In this document: positions 48,779-63,046 of the stretch, one piece after another
Layout: every line of letters begins with the position of its first letter
How positions within the stretch are numbered: position 1 is the first letter of the stretch
DNA from: Nautilia profundicola AmH
Lineage (GTDB): Bacteria; Campylobacterota; Campylobacteria; Campylobacterales; Nautiliaceae
NCBI RefSeq assembly: GCF_000021725.1
Contig: NC_012115.1
Location: 1,131,408 to 1,195,407, forward strand
Length of the DNA: 64,000 bases
Direction of reading: 5' to 3'
Notes under the pieces: generated by a model
What the model saw: the letters and a program-made list of their open reading frames with translations, nothing else
The model's database searches: none
What the model was told of the DNA's origin: nothing
Position numbers and translations under genes: made by a program

Positions 48779-50311
48779 ATGAAAAAAGCACTTACGGCTG
48801 GGTTAAGCGTAGCGGCGATTGCAAGCTTTGCATTTGCAGCAAACAGCTTAGATTCAAACCCAAATTACAAAAAACTTAAAAATTTCAAACCTCAAGGTGT
48901 AACAAACGATCAATGTTTAATGTGTCACAAAGCTCAAGATCCTGGTATCGTAGCTGACTGGCAACATTCAAAACACGCAAAAGTTGGTGTAGGATGTGTG
49001 GAATGTCACGTTGTTCCTAAAAATTATCCGACTGCTTTCAAAGCACACCCAATGCAAGGAAGCAATTGGACAGTTCAAATTGCAGTATCTTCTGTAACTT
49101 GTGCTAAATGTCACGCAAAAGAAGTTACTGAATATATGAACTCTGGACACGCAAGAGGTGCGGCTCAGTGGCTTGCAACTCCTAAAAACAAACACGGTTA
49201 CCTAATGACTAAACTTTCTTATCATTATGAAAGTTTAAAAGGTGCTAACCAGTCATATATGGTAAACGGTAAAAAAATGGAAAAAGGTATCAGAACTGAT
49301 GGTCCTGTATTCCAAGCAAATGAAAAATCTCCAAGAGTAGCAGACTTAAACGTTGCTAACATCTGTATCCAGTGTCACGGTACTACTATCAAACTTGATA
49401 AAAACGGTAGACCAGATGCAACTACTTGGCCAAACGACGGTATTGCAGCACTATATCCAGATGGTGGGGTATCAAACTGTCTATCTTGTCACAGCAGACA
49501 TAAATTCTCTGCAGCTGAAGCAAGACAACCAGGTGCATGTACAAACTGTCACTTAGGACCTGACCATCCAATGAAAGAAGTATTCGAATCTTCAGTTCAC
49601 GGACACATTTTCGAAACTAATGAAGAAGATTACAAATTCGATACTGGTGAACAAATCCCAGGTAAAACTGTTAGAGCTGGTACATGTTTCACTTGTCACC
49701 AAGCAGCTATCGGTGGATTAAAATCTACTCACAACGTTTCACTTAGACTTAAATGGAACCTATGGGCACCAGGAAGCTTCTTAAGAACTGGTGGATATGA
49801 AACTGCTGGTTGGGCATTCTGGAAAGGTGGAGGAAAAATCAATCCTGACACTGTAATCAGAGGTAACGCTAAAGCTGGTAACCCTCAAGGTCCAGAAGCA
49901 GCAAGAGCTGAAATGAAAAAAGTTTGTATGGTATGTCACGAAGCTACATTTACAAACAACTATTTCCAAAGAATTGATGCGGCTGTAACTGTTTACAACC
50001 AATACAAATCTTTTGCAACTAAAATGTTAAAAGATCTTAAAGCTAAAGGTCTAATGAAATCTGACGTATGGAGCGATCCATTCTTCAAACTATACTACTA
50101 CCTATGGCATCATGAAGGTAGAAGATTTAGACACGGTGCAGCTATGGGATCACCTGACTATGCTCACTGGCATGGTGTATTCCAAGTAATGCAAGATATC
50201 AGAGAAATGAAAGATATCTATGATTACAGAATGAAAATGCTTAAAAAATACGGAGACCCTAAAAAAGCATTGGCAAACGAAGTTCCAATGCCAGTTGTTA
50301 CTCACGAGTAA
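48779..50311 (+). CDS. Octaheme cytochrome c, hydroxylamine oxidoreductase family (epsilon-HAO)
   Basis: The 510-residue protein has a signal peptide (MKKALTAGLSVAAIASFAFA) and exactly eight CXXCH heme sites, at residues 46, 73, 108, 196, 234, 254, 303 and 383, matching the HAO family. In Campylobacterota such proteins are thought to work reductively (nitrite to hydroxylamine or ammonium), and a reverse hydroxylamine-ubiquinone module has been proposed for Nautilia nitrate ammonification. The C-terminal region WHHEGRRFRHGAAMGSPDY is family-typical; whether the cross-linking tyrosine of true hydroxylamine oxidases is present needs an alignment. It stands alone with a strong AAGGAGC ribosome site and its own terminator; no NapC-type partner is adjacent. 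Confidence 0.93.
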   Translation: MKKALTAGLSVAAIASFAFAANSLDSNPNYKKLKNFKPQGVTNDQCLMCHKAQDPGIVADWQHSKHAKVGVGCVECHVVPKNYPTAFKAHPMQGSNWTVQIAVSSVTCAKCHAKEVTEYMNSGHARGAAQWLATPKNKHGYLMTKLSYHYESLKGANQSYMVNGKKMEKGIRTDGPVFQANEKSPRVADLNVANICIQCHGTTIKLDKNGRPDATTWPNDGIAALYPDGGVSNCLSCHSRHKFSAAEARQPGACTNCHLGPDHPMKEVFESSVHGHIFETNEEDYKFDTGEQIPGKTVRAGTCFTCHQAAIGGLKSTHNVSLRLKWNLWAPGSFLRTGGYETAGWAFWKGGGKINPDTVIRGNAKAGNPQGPEAARAEMKKVCMVCHEATFTNNYFQRIDAAVTVYNQYKSFATKMLKDLKAKGLMKSDVWSDPFFKLYYYLWHHEGRRFRHGAAMGSPDYAHWHGVFQVMQDIREMKDIYDYRMKMLKKYGDPKKALANEVPMPVVTHE

Positions 50312-55808: not shown

Positions 55809-56852
55809 TTAAATTACTTTAATAAATTTCTCTTCTTTTTCTTTCACGTTTCCTATAATTTTTGCAAAAACGCCTTCATTTCCGGCTCTTTTTAGATATT
55901 CTTCCGCTTTTTCCTGAGGAAGTGATATTAGTAGTCCTCCGCTTGTCTGAGCGTCAAACAAAATCATCTGCTCTTCAAAACTAAGATTTCTAACAAACTC
56001 CACATATTTTTCAACAAATATCTGATTGTTGTAGCTTCCGGCAGGTATAATACCCATACTCGCCTGGTTGATCGCTTCACTTATAAACGGTACTTTGTCA
56101 AACTCTACCTCAATTGTGAATTTCTTGCCGCTCATTTCATAAAGATGCCCGAGCAGTCCGAAGCCCGTAACGTCCGTCATTGCGCTTACACCGATTTCCC
56201 TTGCGATTATACTTGCCTTGTAATTAAGGGTTCTTAAAATTTCGGCAACTTCACTCGCTACTTCGTCACTCACCAGATCAGCTTTTATAGCGGTTGTAAG
56301 TATCCCCATTCCCAGAGGCTTTGTAAGGATTATTACATCATCTTTTTTTAAAGTATTGTTTCTAATCATCTGCTTAGGGTTCACAACCCCTGTAACACTG
56401 AGTCCGTATAGCATTTCAGGCGTTTCAATCGTATGGCCTCCGGCAAGAACGCCTCCGCACTCTTTAATTTTATCCTCACCGCCTTTTAAAATCTCTTTTA
56501 ATACTTCCCTGTCGTGGTGACACGAATCAAATCCCACAAGGTTAAGTGCCGTTTTAACGTCACCGCCCATGGCAAATACATCGCTTAGCGAATTTGCAGC
56601 GGCAATCTGCCCGTAAACGAAAGGGTCGTCAACCACAGGCGTTATGAAATCAACGGTCTGAACAAGTGCAATATCATCCGTTATTTTATATATGCTGGCA
56701 TCTTCATTGCCTTCAAATCCTACAAGCAGGTTTTCATTGCTGCATCCTAAAACGCAGGTTGTGTCGTTTAGCTCCTCCGGAGCCAGTTTACCCGCTCAGC
56801 CCGCTGCTCTTACGTATTTCGTTAGTTTGGCTTCATTATTTAATTTTAGCAT
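55809..56852 (-). CDS. selD: Selenide, water dikinase SelD, a selenoprotein (in-frame UGA = Sec at residue 19)
   Basis: SelD makes selenophosphate from selenide and ATP. Ordinary calling stops at a GTG at 56636, giving 275 residues. The same frame continues upstream through one TGA (56798-56796) to an ATG at 56852 with a strong AAAGGAAGG site. Reading UGA as selenocysteine gives 347 residues, the length of E. coli SelD, with the missing catalytic loop RAAGUAGKLAP: U19 replaces catalytic Cys17 and the lysine at +3 is kept. The ATP/metal segment KITDDIALVQTVDFITPVVD also lies in the restored part, followed by FVYGQIAAANSLSDVFAMGG. A SECIS-like hairpin follows the UGA. It closes the yedF-to-selD run, 30 bases after the DsrE-like gene. 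Confidence 0.95.
56765..56798 (-). promoter_or_regulatory. SelD selenocysteine codon and SECIS-like stem-loop
   Basis: On the minus strand the UGA (56798-56796) is followed after 12 bases by a stem GCTCC / GGAGC (56783-56779 with 56775-56771) with a small G-rich loop. Bacterial SECIS hairpins lie just after the UGA within the reading frame and carry a G in a short apical loop, which fits. The fold is judged by eye. Confidence 0.7.
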
Positions 56853-56882
56853 TGCCTTCCTTTACCAGCGTTTCAAATTTTA

Positions 56883-57239
56883 TTAAAAAGTAAGCACCTG
56901 GTCACACTCTTCAACCCAGTCTGCCAAATCATTCATTGTTGCTTTAATTTCAGGTGCAAAGTAAGGTTCGTTTTTATAAATACCGCATCTTGCCTGACAT
57001 GTTCCGCAGACTTTCAGTTTCACTCCGTCTTGATACATTTCTTTAAGCATTGCCACAAGATCGTTGTCGTAATTATCCGGTTTTTTATTGCAGTCTCTTG
57101 CCAAATCCACAGAATCGTTCATAAGGAAAATTCTCACATCATGCCCGCGTCCGTGCATGTTTTTAGCCAGTCTCAGTCCGTTCCAAGCCACATCGCTTCC
57201 GTCATAAGGTTCTCTATTGAATATAAATAATACTTTCAT
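56883..57239 (-). CDS. DsrE/DsrF-like (sulfur/selenium relay) protein
   Basis: From the chosen ATG the protein has 118 residues and begins MKVLFIFNREPYDGSDVAWN, a DsrE-like alpha/beta fold. The cysteines in KVCGTCQARCGIY (about residues 77-89) lie where DsrE/TusD-type proteins carry their persulfide cysteine, so it may hold sulfur or selenium as persulfide or selenosulfide. A GTG two codons upstream falls inside the ribosome site AAAGGAGTG and is less likely. It lies between the MerP-like gene and selD, which suggests it hands selenium to SelD; this is inference from position. Confidence 0.82.
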   Translation of the reverse strand: MKVLFIFNREPYDGSDVAWNGLRLAKNMHGRGHDVRIFLMNDSVDLARDCNKKPDNYDNDLVAMLKEMYQDGVKLKVCGTCQARCGIYKNEPYFAPEIKATMNDLADWVEECDQVLTF

Positions 57240-57329
57240 TTTCACTCCTTTAAATTTAGTTATTTGTTATTTATTAGTTTTTTTATTGATTTGATATTTA
57301 GTCACGATTGTAAATATACCAACCATAAA

Positions 57330-57378
57330 CTAATTCTTCATTCTCAACTATTCACTTTTCATTTTTCACTTCTAAAAC
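57330..57378. repeat. Heptanucleotide array at the end of the MerP-like gene (about seven units)
   Basis: Plus-strand sevens: CTAATTC, TTCATTC, TCAACTA, TTCACTT, TTCATTT, TTCACTT, CTAAAAC. On the coding (minus) strand these are GTGAAAA/ATGAAAA-type units; they encode the last residues (EVKNEK) and stop of the MerP-like gene and continue beyond it. This is the clearest array in the window. Confidence 0.65.
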
Positions 57379-57633
57379 TTTCCCCTTGTATCCCACCACT
57401 TCAATGGCGTGTAAAAGCTTTGACGTATCCGTTTTGGCGTCATCATACACAACTGTCGCTTTTTTAGTGCTTAAAAGCACTTTTGCCTTTACTACACCGG
57501 GTGTGGTTTTAAGACTTCTTTTAATGGCGCTCGTGCACAAAGGACACGTCATGCCTTCAACTTCTATTATTACCGTTTTTTCAGCTGCAAAAAGCGCTGA
57601 AACAAAAATAAGCCCGATAAAAAATTTCTTCAT
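57352..57633 (-). CDS. MerP-like periplasmic heavy-metal-associated protein
   Basis: The 93-residue precursor has a signal peptide (MKKFFIGLIFVSALFA) and one HMA domain with the ligand motif GMTCPLC (C30 and C33; MerP has GMTCAAC). In mercury operons MerP binds Hg(II) in the periplasm and passes it to the membrane protein MerT. Here it follows a TusA-MerT fusion after one base, keeping the merT-merP order, but no merA or merR is present. In this selenium/formate-dehydrogenase setting it may bind a selenium species or a metal. The C-terminal residues EVKNEK are encoded by a heptad repeat and so may be a late addition. Confidence 0.85.
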   Translation of the reverse strand: MKKFFIGLIFVSALFAAEKTVIIEVEGMTCPLCTSAIKRSLKTTPGVVKAKVLLSTKKATVVYDDAKTDTSKLLHAIEVVGYKGKVLEVKNEK

Positions 57634-57634
57634 A

Positions 57635-58231
57635 TTATTCTCCCAAGAGTACGTACTGAGCCCAGTACGGATAGCTTAGCATTATAGCAACAAAAACAGT
57701 CCCTATACTCAGATATTTCACATAATTTTTGCAAATACTACCCTCACACACAGGTCTTTTGCGAAGTCTGAAAAACCAGTTCCACCAAAGATAAGCGATA
57801 ATCACAACCGCCGCCACCGTAAAATAATCCCTGTACGGTGCAAATACATGTAAAAATGAAAGGCTCCCCACACTCACACCGAACATTAAAAAAAGTAAAG
57901 GTCCAAGACAGCACATACTCGCAAGTACAGCCGTTGCAACAGCTCCCGCTATCAGCGCCCAGAATGATTTGCTCTCTTTATTGCCTCCATTTGGAGGCAG
58001 GTCAAGTTTGCATTCATAACCTTTCACGATTCTGATAACGGTGTTTTTGCCGTCTTTTTTCGTATCTGTAAAAAGCCCCTGGTTTTGGGCGAATCTTTTA
58101 ACGTTTTGAACGGAAGAAAAAGAATTTACCTCAACTTCGAGTATCCCCTCTTCCATCTCTTCAAGCGCGTCTTTGGTCCTGAGTACAGGTTCGGGACACG
58201 CCAAATCTTTACAGTCAATTCGTTTTACCAT
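57635..58231 (-). CDS. TusA-MerT fusion protein
   Basis: This 198-residue protein joins two families. Residues 1-77 are a TusA/SirA domain with the sulfur-accepting cysteine in ACPEPVLRT (C12) and the ending KGYEC. After a short linker, residues 88-198 match MerT: a first helix WALIAGAVATAVLASMCCLG with the paired cysteines C107-C108, a second helix region, a loop with VCEGSIC (C162, C167; MerT has a similar cysteine pair) and a third helix. MerT passes metal from periplasmic MerP through its cysteine pairs to the cytoplasm; the fused TusA could take the cargo directly. The MerP-like gene follows by one base. The TusA part is close to that of the YedF gene two genes upstream. The cargo, selenium or metal, is unproven. 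Confidence 0.87.
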   Translation of the reverse strand: MVKRIDCKDLACPEPVLRTKDALEEMEEGILEVEVNSFSSVQNVKRFAQNQGLFTDTKKDGKNTVIRIVKGYECKLDLPPNGGNKESKSFWALIAGAVATAVLASMCCLGPLLFLMFGVSVGSLSFLHVFAPYRDYFTVAAVVIIAYLWWNWFFRLRKRPVCEGSICKNYVKYLSIGTVFVAIMLSYPYWAQYVLLGE

Positions 58232-59343
58232 TAAAACAGTTCCTGAGACGTAATCTTATACGCAAAACTTTTAGGTACGTAATAATTAAGCACCTCATCC
58301 TCAACTTCTGCATACGGATATCCGAACATGTTAAGAGGATACTGGGTCGGTTTAGGATAAAGCACGAAATCCCTCGCATGGTTAAACCCTACCCAGTTCA
58401 TCTCCCATGAATGCAGGTATCTTTTGATAAGCTCCTGCACTTTCGGATCGTCGTATTTTCTGCCTTCTACAAGTTCAAGTTTTGTAATATCCGCCGGATC
58501 AGTCGGAATCCACCCAGCTCCCGGAATGTAATATTCAGCCCTGCAGTGCTGCCATGTGGTAATATCGGCAAAGCCGTTTTTGTCGCTTTTTCCAAGCGCT
58601 TTAGAAAAATGGCTCTTACCGAGCCTTATTCCGAATACTTCCCTGGCAGGCACTCCTGCAGCTCTTGTAAGCGCTGTAAAGAGTGAGCTTAAATCGGTAC
58701 ATTTTCCTCCGTAGTATCCGTTTTTGTAGATATCTTCTATATCTTTTTGTGTTACCATTTTATTAACATCACCTTTACCGCATCCCACAACTTTATTATC
58801 CCTGAACGTATGTTTCGTACACCAGTAATAAATAGCCTTTACTTTTTCAAATCTGTCGGTTTTACCCTGTGTGATTCTATCAGCCAGAGCTTTAATGATT
58901 CCGGTTGTCGGAATATGTTCGGTCGGTTTTAAAAACTTTTTAACATCTTCCGGTATCGGCAGGTTTTGTTTGCTTGTGGCTTCTATTTTTTCAATAGGTA
59001 CGCTTCTTGGTTTAGTTTCGATTATCATTTCAAGGTATACAAGTTTTTTATTAGGTGATTTATTCCACTCGGCATAAAACGTGTTTGCGTTGTATTCGTT
59101 CATTGAATTGATATCGTAATCGTTATAATTCCCAGCAAATTTCAAAAACTTAACCCTCTGATAATCAGCGTTAAAAGGCAGCGGATTCCAAAGCCTTGCA
59201 GGATATTCCTTTTCGTAATATCTGATATCAAAAGCGTAATTCACCTTAAATCTTCTAACCTCATCATTTGCACTGACAACACTCGGCATCGCAGCCGCTG
59301 TACCTAAAGCAACACCTGTTTTTAAAAAGTCTCTTCTTTTCAT
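58231..59343 (-). CDS. Tat-exported transglutaminase-like protein
   Basis: The 370-residue precursor has a twin-arginine signal (MKRRDFLKTGVALGTAAAMP, SRRxFLK type). The mature part has a beta-rich N-terminal domain (about 30-125) and a transglutaminase-like core with the triad C215 (GGKCTDLSSLFTALTRAAGV), H266 (WQHCRAEYYI) and D282 (IPTDPAD). Bacterial homologues are usually cysteine proteases or amidases, with unknown targets. Export by Tat implies that it folds, perhaps with a cofactor, in the cytoplasm. It lies between yedF (8-base gap) and the TusA-MerT gene (1-base overlap) and so is part of the same run; it may process a periplasmic peptide or thiol conjugate. Confidence 0.85.
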   Translation of the reverse strand: MKRRDFLKTGVALGTAAAMPSVVSANDEVRRFKVNYAFDIRYYEKEYPARLWNPLPFNADYQRVKFLKFAGNYNDYDINSMNEYNANTFYAEWNKSPNKKLVYLEMIIETKPRSVPIEKIEATSKQNLPIPEDVKKFLKPTEHIPTTGIIKALADRITQGKTDRFEKVKAIYYWCTKHTFRDNKVVGCGKGDVNKMVTQKDIEDIYKNGYYGGKCTDLSSLFTALTRAAGVPAREVFGIRLGKSHFSKALGKSDKNGFADITTWQHCRAEYYIPGAGWIPTDPADITKLELVEGRKYDDPKVQELIKRYLHSWEMNWVGFNHARDFVLYPKPTQYPLNMFGYPYAEVEDEVLNYYVPKSFAYKITSQELF

Positions 59344-59351
59344 TTTGTCCC

Positions 59352-59948
59352 TTATAAACTTATAACTTCAGTATGTAAAAGCATATCCATCGTATCGTAT
59401 GCGTTTCCGATTTCCCCTACTTTTAAATCTTCGGCAGGTATATTGTAGTGATTCATGCATAACCCGCACGAATAGATCTTTACACCTCTTTTTTCAAATT
59501 CTTTAAGTATTTCTATTACTTCGGCATTTTCTTCTTTTGTGGTTAAAAACACGCCTTCGTTTACGAAAATAATATTTTTAGGAAGTTTTTTAAATTCAAG
59601 CGTCGTTTTTAAAAACCCTTTCATAAGGATACTTCCAAGCTCTCCGTTTCCGACTTTGTCAGTTTTGATAAACAGGGATTTGTTTAAAAACTTCTCCTCC
59701 TCTTCTTCATCCGCAACAATAGCGCACTCATACCCCTTAACGATTGTTATTAACGTATCTCCGTTTTCAAGCTCTTCGACTTTCGGTTCAAACCCGTTAT
59801 TCATTGCGTATCTTTTTACGTTTTGAACGGATGAAACAGAATTTACAAGCACTTCCAAAATCCCCTCATCCATCTCCTCAAGCGCTTTTTTTGTCTCAAG
59901 CACAGGCTGAGGACAAGCCATATTACGACAGTCTATTTTTTTATTCAT
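59352..59948 (-). CDS. YedF-type selenium/sulfur-relay protein (TusA + DsrE-like)
   Basis: The 198-residue protein has an N-terminal TusA domain (residues 1-75, sulfur cysteine C12 in ACPQPVLETK, ending KGYEC) and a C-terminal DsrE-like domain (about 88-198) with CGLC at 151-154. This is the layout of the selenium-metabolism protein YedF, which occurs with selD in many selenium users. The related C. jejuni FdhU (Cj1505) is needed for formate dehydrogenase activity and lies in a comparable locus. It is the first gene of the run to selD, with an AAAGGATC ribosome site, and follows a structured leader at about 60.12-60.19 kb. Confidence 0.9.
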   Translation of the reverse strand: MNKKIDCRNMACPQPVLETKKALEEMDEGILEVLVNSVSSVQNVKRYAMNNGFEPKVEELENGDTLITIVKGYECAIVADEEEEEKFLNKSLFIKTDKVGNGELGSILMKGFLKTTLEFKKLPKNIIFVNEGVFLTTKEENAEVIEILKEFEKRGVKIYSCGLCMNHYNIPAEDLKVGEIGNAYDTMDMLLHTEVISL

Positions 59949-60121
59949 TTTAGATCCTTTTTAGTGTATAGTGTGTAATTGTAATTAGTGGTTGATAATA
60001 CACGATACAATATATTAAACAGCATTGAAACAGTGTTGAACTTATGAATGATTACCCACTACTTATTTAAATTTTAAAATTAACAACAAATTTTATTGTT
60101 TTGATTTTGCTTGAAGTACAT

Positions 60122-60171
60122 CATGAAGCTATTAGTAGACGCTGCTTCATGTGTTTGTCCGGTCCCCGGAC
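60122..60171 (-). ncRNA. Structured 5' leader or small RNA upstream of yedF (candidate)
   Basis: Two adjacent perfect hairpins, unusually GC-rich for this DNA: GTCCGG-TCC-CCGGAC (60157-60171, 6 bp) and CATGAAGC...GCTTCATG (60122-60129 with 60144-60151, 8 bp, 14-base loop). On the minus strand they begin about 10 bases after the expected transcription start behind a perfect TATAAT. A weak AT hairpin (60085-60100) follows. This could be a riboswitch-like leader or a small RNA of about 100 bases; it fits no RNA family I can name, and it is not a tRNA. The rest of the gap (59949-60121) is AT-rich with heptad-like repeats. Confidence 0.5.
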
Positions 60172-60187
60172 CTTACAGCATGAATGA

Positions 60188-60284: not shown

Positions 60285-61082
60285 ATGGAACCTGTTTCAA
60301 AATTAAAAATCAAAAAAGTAAAAAACGGCAAAAAGTTCGATTTTGAAGATACGTTAATCAGGGAAATAAAAACGGATATCCACATAAACGGTAAAAAAGT
60401 GGTATCCATGATGGCAACCCCTGTGGATCTTGAAGCGCTTGGAGTAGGATATCTGATAAGCGAAGGTATTGTAAATTCTATAGACGATATCGAAAAAATT
60501 GAGCTTAAAAATGAAGGCCTCATAATAGACGTAACGGCAAAAGCCGACACCAAAAAAATAGAAAAACTAAACGAAGAAGCGATAATTGTCAGCGGCTGCG
60601 GTAAAAGCGTAACTTCAAACATAAATATCGAGCCTGAAAAAATCGAAGCCGAAAAAATAACTTCCACAAAAACAATCACCCCCGAAGAAATTTCAAAACA
60701 AATGAATGAATTTTACAAATCATGCCCTCTATATGAAAAAACGGGATGTGTTCACACTGCAAGGATTTATTTCAATGAGAACACATATTTTGACGCGGAA
60801 GACATCGCCCAGCATTCAACAGTGGATAAAGCTGTAGGAAAAGCCATAATGGCCGGTTTAAACCCCGCTGAAGGTATCATGATGGTAAGTGGTAGGCTTA
60901 GCAGTGAAATGATAGTAAAGGCTGTTATGCATAAGATCCCTATTTTGATATCAAGAACGGCCACAACATGCCTCGGCGCAAAAATAGCGGATACGTTCGG
61001 CCTCACCCTGATCGGTTTTGCGAGAGGCGATAAAATGAACATATACACCCACGACTGGAGAATTGAAGAAGTGAAAAATTAA
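60285..61082 (+). CDS. fdhD: Formate dehydrogenase accessory sulfurtransferase FdhD
   Basis: The 265-residue protein has FdhD blocks: ATPVDLEALGVGYLISEGIV (about residues 44-63), IIVSGCGKS (C105), SCPLYEKTGCVHTARIY and the C-terminal ATTCLGAKIADTFGLTLIGF. FdhD takes sulfur from IscS and inserts it into the bis-MGD metal centre of formate dehydrogenase, without which the enzyme is inactive. E. coli FdhD uses a CxxC pair in the loop; here the loop shows one cysteine (GCGKS). A TACTATATAA -10-like stretch and a GGGTTG site precede the ATG. It is the first gene of fdhD-modE-moeA, divergent from the selenium run. Confidence 0.94.
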   Translation: MEPVSKLKIKKVKNGKKFDFEDTLIREIKTDIHINGKKVVSMMATPVDLEALGVGYLISEGIVNSIDDIEKIELKNEGLIIDVTAKADTKKIEKLNEEAIIVSGCGKSVTSNINIEPEKIEAEKITSTKTITPEEISKQMNEFYKSCPLYEKTGCVHTARIYFNENTYFDAEDIAQHSTVDKAVGKAIMAGLNPAEGIMMVSGRLSSEMIVKAVMHKIPILISRTATTCLGAKIADTFGLTLIGFARGDKMNIYTHDWRIEEVKN

Positions 61083-61091
61083 GGAGATATA

Positions 61092-61817
61092 ATGAATACC
61101 ATAAAAGATCTAATCGAAAAATATAAAAACGACGAGAATAAACTCACATGTGCAAAAGCTTACGTAGTAGCCAAAAAAGCGGGGGTTGAGCCAATTACGG
61201 TAGGCAAAACGGCTGATGAGATGGGTGTAAGAATCACCGACTGCGGACTCGGACAGTTCGGAAAACTTGATTTTACCGATAATTATGAAAAAGAGATAAT
61301 CGACGAACTGCAAAAACTTGCGGATGAAAAAAAGAGGGTTTACTGCAAAGACGCAAGAAAGCTCGCCGAAAAATACAACCTCAAAAAAGTAAGAAGTGCC
61401 ATTAAAGATAACGGATTTGAGGTTATTTACTGCGAACTCGGAGTGTTTAAAGAAAAAAAACGCCCACGTGCATACATTAAAACAAAAATCTGGATTGAAA
61501 ACAATAAAGGCGAACTGCTTTTCGGAAAAGGCAAAACGGAAATACTCGAACTTATACAAAAAGAAGGTTCAATCGCAAAAGCGGCTGAAAAAATGGGCTT
61601 AAACTACAAAAAAGCGTGGAATCATATTAAAATACTGCAAAAGAATCTTGAAGACGAGCTTGTAATAGCTCAAAAAGGCGTAAAAGGCGGCACTACCCTC
61701 ACTCCGAAGGCAAAAGAATACATAGAAGTATACAAACAGCTTGAGAGTGAGATTCAGGAATTTGCCGATAAACGTTTTAAAGAGCTGTATCTAAAAAAAC
61801 TGAAAGGGAAAAAATGA
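61092..61817 (+). CDS. ModE-type winged-helix regulator with extra N-terminal region
   Basis: The 241-residue protein ends in a ModE-like DNA-binding domain (about residues 150-235: ILELIQKEGSIAKAAEKMGL, NYKKAWNHIKILQK, GGTTLTPKAKEYIE). The first 120 residues hold two similar repeats (VEPITVGKTADEMGVRITDC followed by GLGQFGK, and VRSAIKDNGFEVIYCELGVF), not the TOBE molybdate-binding domains of classical ModE. C. jejuni also has a ModE-like gene (Cj1507c) in its formate dehydrogenase locus. It probably senses molybdate/tungstate or cofactor state and controls fdh and Mo genes. It is 9 bases after fdhD and overlaps moeA by four bases. Confidence 0.83.
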   Translation: MNTIKDLIEKYKNDENKLTCAKAYVVAKKAGVEPITVGKTADEMGVRITDCGLGQFGKLDFTDNYEKEIIDELQKLADEKKRVYCKDARKLAEKYNLKKVRSAIKDNGFEVIYCELGVFKEKKRPRAYIKTKIWIENNKGELLFGKGKTEILELIQKEGSIAKAAEKMGLNYKKAWNHIKILQKNLEDELVIAQKGVKGGTTLTPKAKEYIEVYKQLESEIQEFADKRFKELYLKKLKGKK

Positions 61818-63046
61818 CAGTTTTAGACAACATATCATATTCCGAGGCGCTTGAACTATGCCTAAAAAACGCAAAACCTAAAAAAACACACCAAAACATA
61901 TATATAAACGAAGCGTTAAATAGGGTTTTGGCAGAAGATATTATTGCAAAAAGAAATTCTCCGGTATTCACCAACTCCGCAATGGACGGGTTCGCTTTTA
62001 AACACTCATCCGATAAAAAACTGAAAGTAATAAAAACCATTTACGCCGGTGACAAATATGAAGATTTTGAAATAAAAGAGGGGGAATGCGTCCGTATTAT
62101 GACGGGTGCCAGGGTTCCAAACGGCCTTGATACTGTTATTCCAATCGAAAAGTGTGAAGAAGTAACCGATGAATATATAATGATTCCTGAGATTAAAAAA
62201 GGAGCCAATGTAAGAATTAAGGGTGAAGAGATTGCAAAAGGAGATGTGTTAATTAAAAAAGGCGAAAGAATAACCCCTGAAATCATTGCAATGCTTGTAA
62301 GCCAGGGAATCGTAAACGTTCCTGTATATACAAAGCTGAAAATCGCGGTGCTTTCAACCGGAAACGAACTTAAAGAGCCATGGGAGAGTGCCGACGAAGA
62401 GGAAATATACAACGTCAACTCATATGCTATCGAAGCGCTGTTAAAAAAATTCGGCTTTAGTGCTGATATTATAGGTTTAATACCAGATTCACTTGAAAAA
62501 ACCGTAGAATATATAAAAACTCTCAAAAACGAATACGACGTAATAATAACAAGCGGAGGTATAAGTTTCGGGGATGCGGACTTTTTGTTTGAAGCGTTTA
62601 AACAAAACGGACTTAAGGAGTTTTTCCACGGAATCATGGTAAAACCGGGACGCCCGACAATGGCCGGGATTATGGGTGAGACATTCGTATTCGCAATGCC
62701 CGGAAATCCTCTTAGCTCATACATAAACACATTCGCACTTGCCATACCTACGCTTAAAAAATTAAGTGGCGCGGATAAATACTACTTCCAAAGCATTACG
62801 GCCGTAAATAAAAGTGACTTTAAAGTAAACGCAAAAAAAGACCATACAATATTAGGATATTACGAAAACGGAGAATGGGAGGTATATAACGGTTACAAAT
62901 ACGGCTCAGGAATGCTTACTCCTTTAATTAAAAGCAACTCTTTAATGCTTTTAAACAAAGGAAAAGATCTAATAAAAAAAGGTGAAATTTTAAAAATAAT
63001 TCCATTTGATGCTGGTTTTGGTAAAAACAAATTTACTTTTAATTAA
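61814..63046 (+). CDS. moeA: Molybdopterin molybdenumtransferase MoeA
   Basis: The 410-residue protein has the MoeA hallmarks TNSAMDGFAFK (about residues 54-64), MTGARVPNGLDTVIPIE (about 96-112), the MPT-binding SGGISFGDADF (about 253-263) and AMPGNPLSSY, plus the C-terminal domain IV. It inserts molybdate (or tungstate) into adenylylated molybdopterin to make Moco. With fdhD and the ModE-like regulator it serves formate dehydrogenase and other Mo/W enzymes; mobB at 16.1 kb acts later in the same pathway. Confidence 0.94.
   Translation: MTVLDNISYSEALELCLKNAKPKKTHQNIYINEALNRVLAEDIIAKRNSPVFTNSAMDGFAFKHSSDKKLKVIKTIYAGDKYEDFEIKEGECVRIMTGARVPNGLDTVIPIEKCEEVTDEYIMIPEIKKGANVRIKGEEIAKGDVLIKKGERITPEIIAMLVSQGIVNVPVYTKLKIAVLSTGNELKEPWESADEEEIYNVNSYAIEALLKKFGFSADIIGLIPDSLEKTVEYIKTLKNEYDVIITSGGISFGDADFLFEAFKQNGLKEFFHGIMVKPGRPTMAGIMGETFVFAMPGNPLSSYINTFALAIPTLKKLSGADKYYFQSITAVNKSDFKVNAKKDHTILGYYENGEWEVYNGYKYGSGMLTPLIKSNSLMLLNKGKDLIKKGEILKIIPFDAGFGKNKFTFN

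Follow-up and report, generated by a model that had tools for sequence, protein, structure and literature searches.

A review of 2022 stated that no high-affinity selenium transport system had been identified (PMC9312934); SelF of Campylobacter jejuni, beside FdhT, was proposed later, in a species in which FdhT influences the activity of the selenium-dependent formate dehydrogenase (PMC11237541). YedE, YedF, a LysR regulator and DUF3343 have been proposed as selenium genes, in a study in which a transglutaminase-like enzyme appears only in a STRING table (PMC5322559). A mechanism of related interest is known from thiosulfate uptake by YeeE (TsuA) and YeeD (TsuB), where thiosulfate travels along membrane cysteines to a cysteine of a TusA-family protein, a process likened to group translocation, and where the two proteins are fused in some species (PMC11073785). 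As for proteins of the mercury-transporter type, a MerT selenoprotein has been catalogued (PMC9312934), and MerT and HMA selenoproteins have been listed (PMC9312934, PMC2398784). In this paper we analyze a run of six genes, at 55809-59948 on the minus strand of a 64,000-nucleotide (nt) stretch of the genome of Nautilia profundicola AmH, a bacterium of the deep-sea-vent type, in which a TusA-MerT fusion and a MerP-like protein are encoded together with selenophosphate synthetase (SelD). We refer to the whole stretch as the window; the genome itself is a single contig of 1,676,444 bases.

Our main result is that the central genes of this run form a conserved module, and that this module is almost certainly linked to the selenium trait. 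We consider it somewhat probable that the module is a selenium acquisition route feeding selenophosphate synthesis, a reading in which we infer the substrate, the direction of transport and the chemistry of the transglutaminase-like protein. A selenium uptake route with a mercury-transporter-like pair has probably not been described before: we found no paper on a TusA-MerT fusion or on this module as a selenium uptake system, in a search that lacked most subscription journals; the literature found on MerT or MerP and selenium consists of selenoprotein listings; and beyond the STRING entry in PMC5322559 we found nothing that ties a transglutaminase-like enzyme to selenium genes.

The run and its conservation

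The six genes, all verified, occur in the order yedF, TGase, TusA-MerT fusion, merP, dsrE and selD, where TGase is our shorthand for a protein of the twin-arginine translocation (Tat) type with a transglutaminase-like domain. A preliminary description of this DNA had claimed the same run, and open reading frames together with profile matches recover each gene in the order claimed. That description had also called the run tight, which is true of yedF through merP and less so of what follows. The first four genes are almost contiguous, with 8 nt between yedF and TGase, an overlap of 1 nt between the TGase stop and the TusA-MerT start, and 1 nt before merP, whereas the spacers downstream are wider, at about 106-112 nt between merP and dsrE and 30 nt between dsrE and selD. 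The unit also reaches beyond 59948: there is a structured leader at about 60106-60180, and the genes fdhD, modE and moeA diverge from 60285.

Our sample consists of 150 near-complete Campylobacterota genomes; G numbers denote genomes, and L numbers fetched loci. TusA-MerT fusions occur in eight of the 150 genomes, from four families (f1, f4, f10 and f11), and the fusion modules are always ordered TGase, TusA-MerT, MerP. When species genomes were scanned with the TGase alignment, 55 loci were recovered, three from Aquificota and nearly all the others from Campylobacterota; most of them have the arrangement TGase-MerT-MerP, in which MerT may be free or a TusA fusion. All 41 genes matching PF02411 among the 150 genomes adjoin a TGase. 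The combination TGase-(TusA-)MerT-MerP is conserved as a module, and since the order and the fusion recur in several families, the arrangement is not due to chance.

Fused and unfused modules differ in the SelD that accompanies them. Among the loci classified, the selenocysteine (Sec) type of SelD accompanies each of the 22 fused modules, whereas a higher-scoring SelD type lacking the TGA accompanies 12 of the 16 unfused MerT modules (p=7e-7 versus fused; L052, L054, L058, L059, L068, L075, L077, L078, L079, L083, L084 and L090). The TusA fusion may accompany the Sec branch of selenium use, with relatedness as a confounder; counter to the pattern, G073 carries a fusion alongside a Cys SelD.

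A few loci depart from the common layout. In L033 (9269-12736, minus strand) and L086 a 1155-residue fused Fe-S/molybdopterin oxidoreductase, TtrA/TtrB-like and possibly a reductase of sulfur or selenium oxyanions, lies between yedF and TGase. A 2-hydroxyacyl-CoA dehydratase-like protein and its activase adjoin the selenium run in L035 (11660-13740, minus strand), L141 (9168-11251, minus strand) and L065; the STRING list of PMC5322559 contains genes of this kind. In G061 a TGase relative (L139, 5410-6408, minus strand) has lost the catalytic cysteine region and the MerT neighbour, and probably represents decay.

Association with selenium genes

TGase is present in 44 of the 150 genomes, and selD in all 44 of these, compared with 114 of 150 overall (Fisher p=5e-7); none of the 36 genomes without a SelD over the cut-off carries TGase. 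Outside the Campylobacter and Helicobacter families (family names inferred), selD occurs in 18/18 genomes with TGase versus 9/29 (p=1.4e-6). These counts ignore shared ancestry. The 41 MerT genomes likewise all have selD, as do the eight fusion genomes, and accepted selenium genes behave in the same way: the genomes with YedE (42/42) and with FdhT (49/49) are without exception selD-positive. Fifty further TGase genomes include 46 with SelD over the cut-off. The remaining four are metagenome-assembled or derive from a single cell; in one of them selA/selB adjoin the module, and in another the start of selD is truncated.

The association extends to gene neighbourhoods. The gene selD falls inside the fetched flank at 18 of the 55 TGase loci, where about 0.3 would be expected, and in several orientations. 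Within a single Nautiliaceae genus (g2), selD, TGase and the fusion occur together in G004 and are all missing from G039 and G085. The repeated gains and losses, and the variation in gene orientation, speak against mere hitchhiking.

Relatives of TGase beyond Campylobacterota are 31-39% identical and share the motifs GCG, GKC and HCR. Plasmid-borne copies lie beside or near selD, selB, selA or fdh in Sinorhizobium meliloti, Rhizobium, Phyllobacterium, Terrarubrum and Paracoccus ferrooxidans; the gene order is selA, selB, TGase, selD in Cupriavidus, and TGase, selD in S. mexicanum. The selenium-gene neighbourhood of TGase therefore spans more than one phylum, Campylobacterota and the alpha- and betaproteobacterial plasmids of Pseudomonadota. 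The Aquificota genomes with TGase are selD-positive, but there selD is not adjacent to TGase. Records from Pasteurella multocida and Providencia show TGase-MerT-HMA with no sel genes nearby, and a Roseomonas selABD cluster is without an annotated TGase.

Several loci of this group deserve separate mention. The Pasteurella 'plasmid' record (L143) contains his, leuS, holA and secA and looks chromosomal, which leaves the plasmid status of its module in doubt. Small, apparently exported proteins, with a GSTGW stretch in common, adjoin selD and TGase in alphaproteobacteria (L146, 5402-5779; L148, 6373-6768; L152, 8072-8362). The interval between selB and selA in Paracoccus (L153, 8177-10831) contains TGase beside a cysteine desulfurase, a TusA-family protein and DsrE, together with a small membrane protein.

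The preliminary description had proposed the selenium link and had named co-occurrence as its test. The link stands, given the universal presence of selD with TGase and with the fusion, and the TGase genes within selABD clusters elsewhere; the refuting pattern that the description had named, fusions mostly in genomes that lack selD or carry merA/merR, was not observed. A tie to Sec-containing formate dehydrogenase does not stand. The genome G073, rated 100% complete, carries TGase-fusion-MerP beside selD; selU is present and no selB exceeds the cut-off. The module is therefore linked to selenium use and restricted neither to Sec nor to formate dehydrogenase. The same genome disfavours the narrower idea that the module only aids the maturation of periplasmic Sec formate dehydrogenase, an idea suggested by the fdhD/modE neighbours, by the formate dehydrogenase-like genes that adjoin the module in L034, and by alphaproteobacterial fdh clusters with TGase. 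Several MerT-only genomes also have the non-TGA SelD type that is found in selB-negative genomes. We regard this restricted role as very unlikely.

Protein features and the mercury transporter families

YedF (59352-59948, minus strand, as are all six genes) is a selenium-linked, sulfurtransferase-like protein with TusA and DsrE domains (PF01206, PF02635), and it scores 196 bits with the curated model TIGR03527, selenium_YedF, well over the cut-off of 110.

TGase (58231-59343) matches PF01841 with E 3e-21 and 76 bits, against a cut-off of 23. Its N-terminus, MKRRDFLKTG, is a twin-arginine start, for which PF10518 scores 21.8 bits, slightly below its cut-off of 22.7. Residues C215, H266 and D282 are conserved in an eight-member alignment, as are C188 and C267; when 20 diverse relatives from across phyla are aligned, H266 and D282 are invariant and C215 nearly so. 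The AlphaFold2 model, with a predicted local distance difference test (pLDDT) score of 91, has a beta domain and a transglutaminase fold. A sequence search found no solved relatives; the nearest solved fold in the PDB is 3isr, a putative cysteine protease, and the fold matches are only to generic transglutaminase-like proteases. Judged by its sequence, TGase is a Cys-His-Asp triad member of the transglutaminase-like cysteine enzymes (PF01841), and hence a putative enzyme.

The TusA-MerT fusion (57635-58231) matches both PF01206 (60 bits) and PF02411 (48.6 bits, cut-off 32.9) past their cut-offs, and the two halves share one open frame with no stop between them. C12 lies in a CPxP motif of the TusA half, C107-C108 in the first membrane helix, and C162 and C167 in a loop rich in lysine and arginine. 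All of these cysteines, along with P13 and P15, are invariant in the eight fusions, and C107, C108 and C162 remain so once unfused MerTs join the alignment. Because it is Lys/Arg-rich, the C162/C167 loop should, by the positive-inside rule, be cytoplasmic, that is, on the same side as TusA. In this protein, then, the CPxP cysteine of TusA is joined to a membrane part whose cysteines are conserved, the arrangement expected of a transporter-TusA chalcogen relay. The structure model shows a TusA fold followed by membrane helices. Profile searches of the fusion found matches to MerT families but none to a YedE family.

MerP (57352-57633) is a MerP-like exported HMA protein with the motif GMTCPLC, recognized by PF00403 and an N-terminal hydrophobic leader. 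The cysteines and triad residues cited in the preliminary description, including C30 and C33 of MerP, are correct, and they are conserved in the eight fusion modules. The DsrE-like protein (56883-57245; PF02635, 70 bits) has counterparts that accompany yedF/selD in L048, L073, L086 and L093. SelD itself (55809-56852) scores 354 bits against TIGR00476 with the TGA read through. This in-frame TGA is codon 19, where relatives carry TGA or Cys, and a hairpin lies directly 3' of it, with a fold z of only -1.6. No Sec was found in MerT or MerP here or in the loci checked, and a search for hidden Sec codons in odd-frame loci found none.

The family matches raise the question of mercury. If these were ordinary mercury resistance genes in an unusual location, one could point to the PF02411 and HMA matches, to a GMTCxxC motif of the MerP type, and to a CC pair like that of MerT in real mer operons. 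Yet MerA exceeds its cut-off in only one of the 150 genomes, G060, where its coordinates place it about 1.46 Mb away from the module; neither merA nor merR occurs in the window's run or beside the annotated Pasteurella and Providencia modules; and a genuine mer operon has a different layout, MerT-MerP-MerF-MerA. The fusion scores 51 bits against the mercuric MerT equivalog NF010314, whose curated cut-off is 150. With the perfect selD association and with every MerT beside a TGase, we reject mercury resistance as extremely improbable; the preliminary description had likewise considered detoxification unlikely.

The module might instead guard selenium metabolism, by removing or exporting what would poison selenols, be it thiophilic metals (Hg, Cu, Ag) or selenium in excess (selenide). 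In known systems soft metals are bound by MerT and MerP; the names that NCBIfam gives to the closest selenoprotein relatives refer to heavy-metal transport or metal binding; and the module is confined to selenium users among the 150 genomes. However, the operon-like tightness with YedF-DsrE-SelD and the direct fusion to TusA point to delivery into synthesis, and merA/merR are missing from the neighbourhoods named above. We judge a guarding role to be improbable.

Relation to YedE and FdhT

The preliminary description had suggested that MerT replaces YedE. For the fusions this agrees with the data: none of the eight fusion genomes has YedE or FdhT, versus 78 of the 106 other selD-positive genomes (p=5e-5), and in the N. 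profundicola genome neither TIGR04112 (at E 0.001) nor FdhT (at 1e-20) was matched. For the wider module it does not, since 32 of the 44 TGase genomes also hold YedE or FdhT, nearly all of them with unfused MerT. We reject the idea that every MerT takes the place of YedE.

Proposed mechanism

If the module acquires selenium, the following relay can be proposed. The exported TGase would free or load selenium in the periplasm. MerP, through GMTCPLC, would hold a thiol-bound selenium species in the way that Hg(II) sits between two thiols, and MerT would move the selenium inward from C107-C108 to the cytoplasmic loop with C162 and C167. The fused TusA might then accept it as perselenide at C12 of its CPxP motif, and YedF and DsrE would relay it from TusA to SelD. 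MerP and MerT are plausible selenium carriers because thiol-bound selenium and Hg(II) may be regarded as chemically similar two-thiolate species. The specific sequence MerP to MerT to TusA to YedF/DsrE to SelD, including its order, is tentative. In a more general form, MerT/MerP-type proteins of selenium-using bacteria may constitute a dedicated selenium importer that holds selenium between paired thiols, as happens with mercury, and is unloaded directly by the fused TusA, with the exported TGase a general and hitherto unrecognized selenium gene of several phyla; we put this forward with less than even confidence.

Sulfur offers another cargo. The module could import sulfane sulfur (polysulfide or thiosulfate-derived) for TusA-dependent trafficking, with selenium incidental: relatives of TusA, DsrE and YedF handle sulfur, the nearest mechanistic precedent carries thiosulfate, and soxXYZAB-type genes of thiosulfate oxidation lie beside the module in L036, L062, L072 and L094. 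Against this stand the strict presence of selD with TGase and the absence of TGase from all genomes without SelD over the cut-off, the TGases within selABD operons of other phyla, and the unfused MerT, which has no TusA. Import of sulfur is, in our view, unlikely.

Besides the sox neighbours, several facts weigh against the selenium acquisition route. To our knowledge, selenium transport by a MerT has no experimental precedent. The genomes counted are not phylogenetically independent, and the fusions are few, with a selD association that is not significant alone (p=0.20). No MerT was detected near the alpha- and betaproteobacterial and Aquificota TGases, and the TGase copies of Alloyangia, Salipiger and Paracoccus AK26 lie away from selenium genes. 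The coexistence of TGase with YedE or FdhT in so many genomes also counts here, as do the 24 selD-positive genomes that carry none of TGase, YedE and FdhT. Finally, the placement of TusA relative to MerT in the structure model has low confidence (predicted template modelling score, pTM, 0.41).

The module is nevertheless a concrete candidate for a selenium uptake system in many free-living bacteria. If the selenium acquisition route is correct, the mercury-transporter family gains a second physiological cargo, and the transglutaminase-like protein joins the list of selenium genes.

RNA leader and neighbouring genes

About 160 nt upstream of yedF lies a structured RNA leader (60106-60180, minus strand) of 75 nt, with 24 modelled pairs and a covarying hairpin. 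The fold z of the surrounding 131 nt is -3.4, and four pairs of the hairpin show two-sided changes among the three sequences compared. The leader model matches four Nautiliaceae genomes, with E values between 4e-16 and 2e-29; three of these supplied the sequences of the model itself, and G273 is independent. The selenium run begins with this leader in the window, L033, L035 and L160. In G273 and L035 it precedes the gene for a 2-hydroxyacyl-CoA dehydratase-like protein, which in L035 heads the selenium run. No Rfam family or tRNA was matched at or near the leader, which we regard as a candidate cis-regulatory element.

Divergent from the run, at 60285-63046 on the plus strand, are fdhD (PF02634, 242 bits), a gene for a modE-like regulator and moeA, which provide a formate dehydrogenase and molybdenum context; the order fdhD-modE recurs in L033 and L035. 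Elsewhere in the window (48779-50311, plus strand) is a hydroxylamine-oxidoreductase-like multiheme cytochrome c, rich in CxxCH motifs, with a CcdA-like and thioredoxin-like pair downstream.

Comparison with known systems

The module resembles the MerT/MerP mercury importer in its PF02411 and HMA families, its first-helix CC pair and its GMTCxxC motif. It differs in the lack of merA/merR, in having a TusA-fused MerT and a transglutaminase-like partner, and in its restriction to genomes with selD. The profiles of the MerT/CopZ-type selenoproteins (NF045683) and of the UxxU metal-binding (seleno)proteins (NF041115, the closest NCBIfam model to MerP) match TusA-MerT with 37 bits and MerP with 69.7 bits, respectively, but both scores are below the curated cut-offs (95 for NF041115), and the MerT and MerP found here contain no Sec.

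With FdhT/FdhU of C. jejuni and with YedE (TIGR04112) the module shares the combination of a TusA-like protein and a membrane protein, in our reading in the service of selenium-dependent enzymes, and an equally strict linkage to selD. These families do not match MerT, however, and they are absent from the fusion genomes while being co-present with unfused MerT modules.

YeeE-YeeD is similar in that its membrane cysteine relay is coupled to a TusA-family protein, whose conserved cysteine captures the chalcogen (PMC11073785), and the TusA part of the fusion matches structure 8k1r (E 0.04). By analogy MerT looks placed for a YeeE-like role, with MerP as the outer carrier. Unlike YeeE, however, MerT is small and belongs to another membrane family; TusA comes first in the fusion; and the module adds a periplasmic MerP and a transglutaminase-like protein, and is linked to selD rather than to sulfur assimilation.

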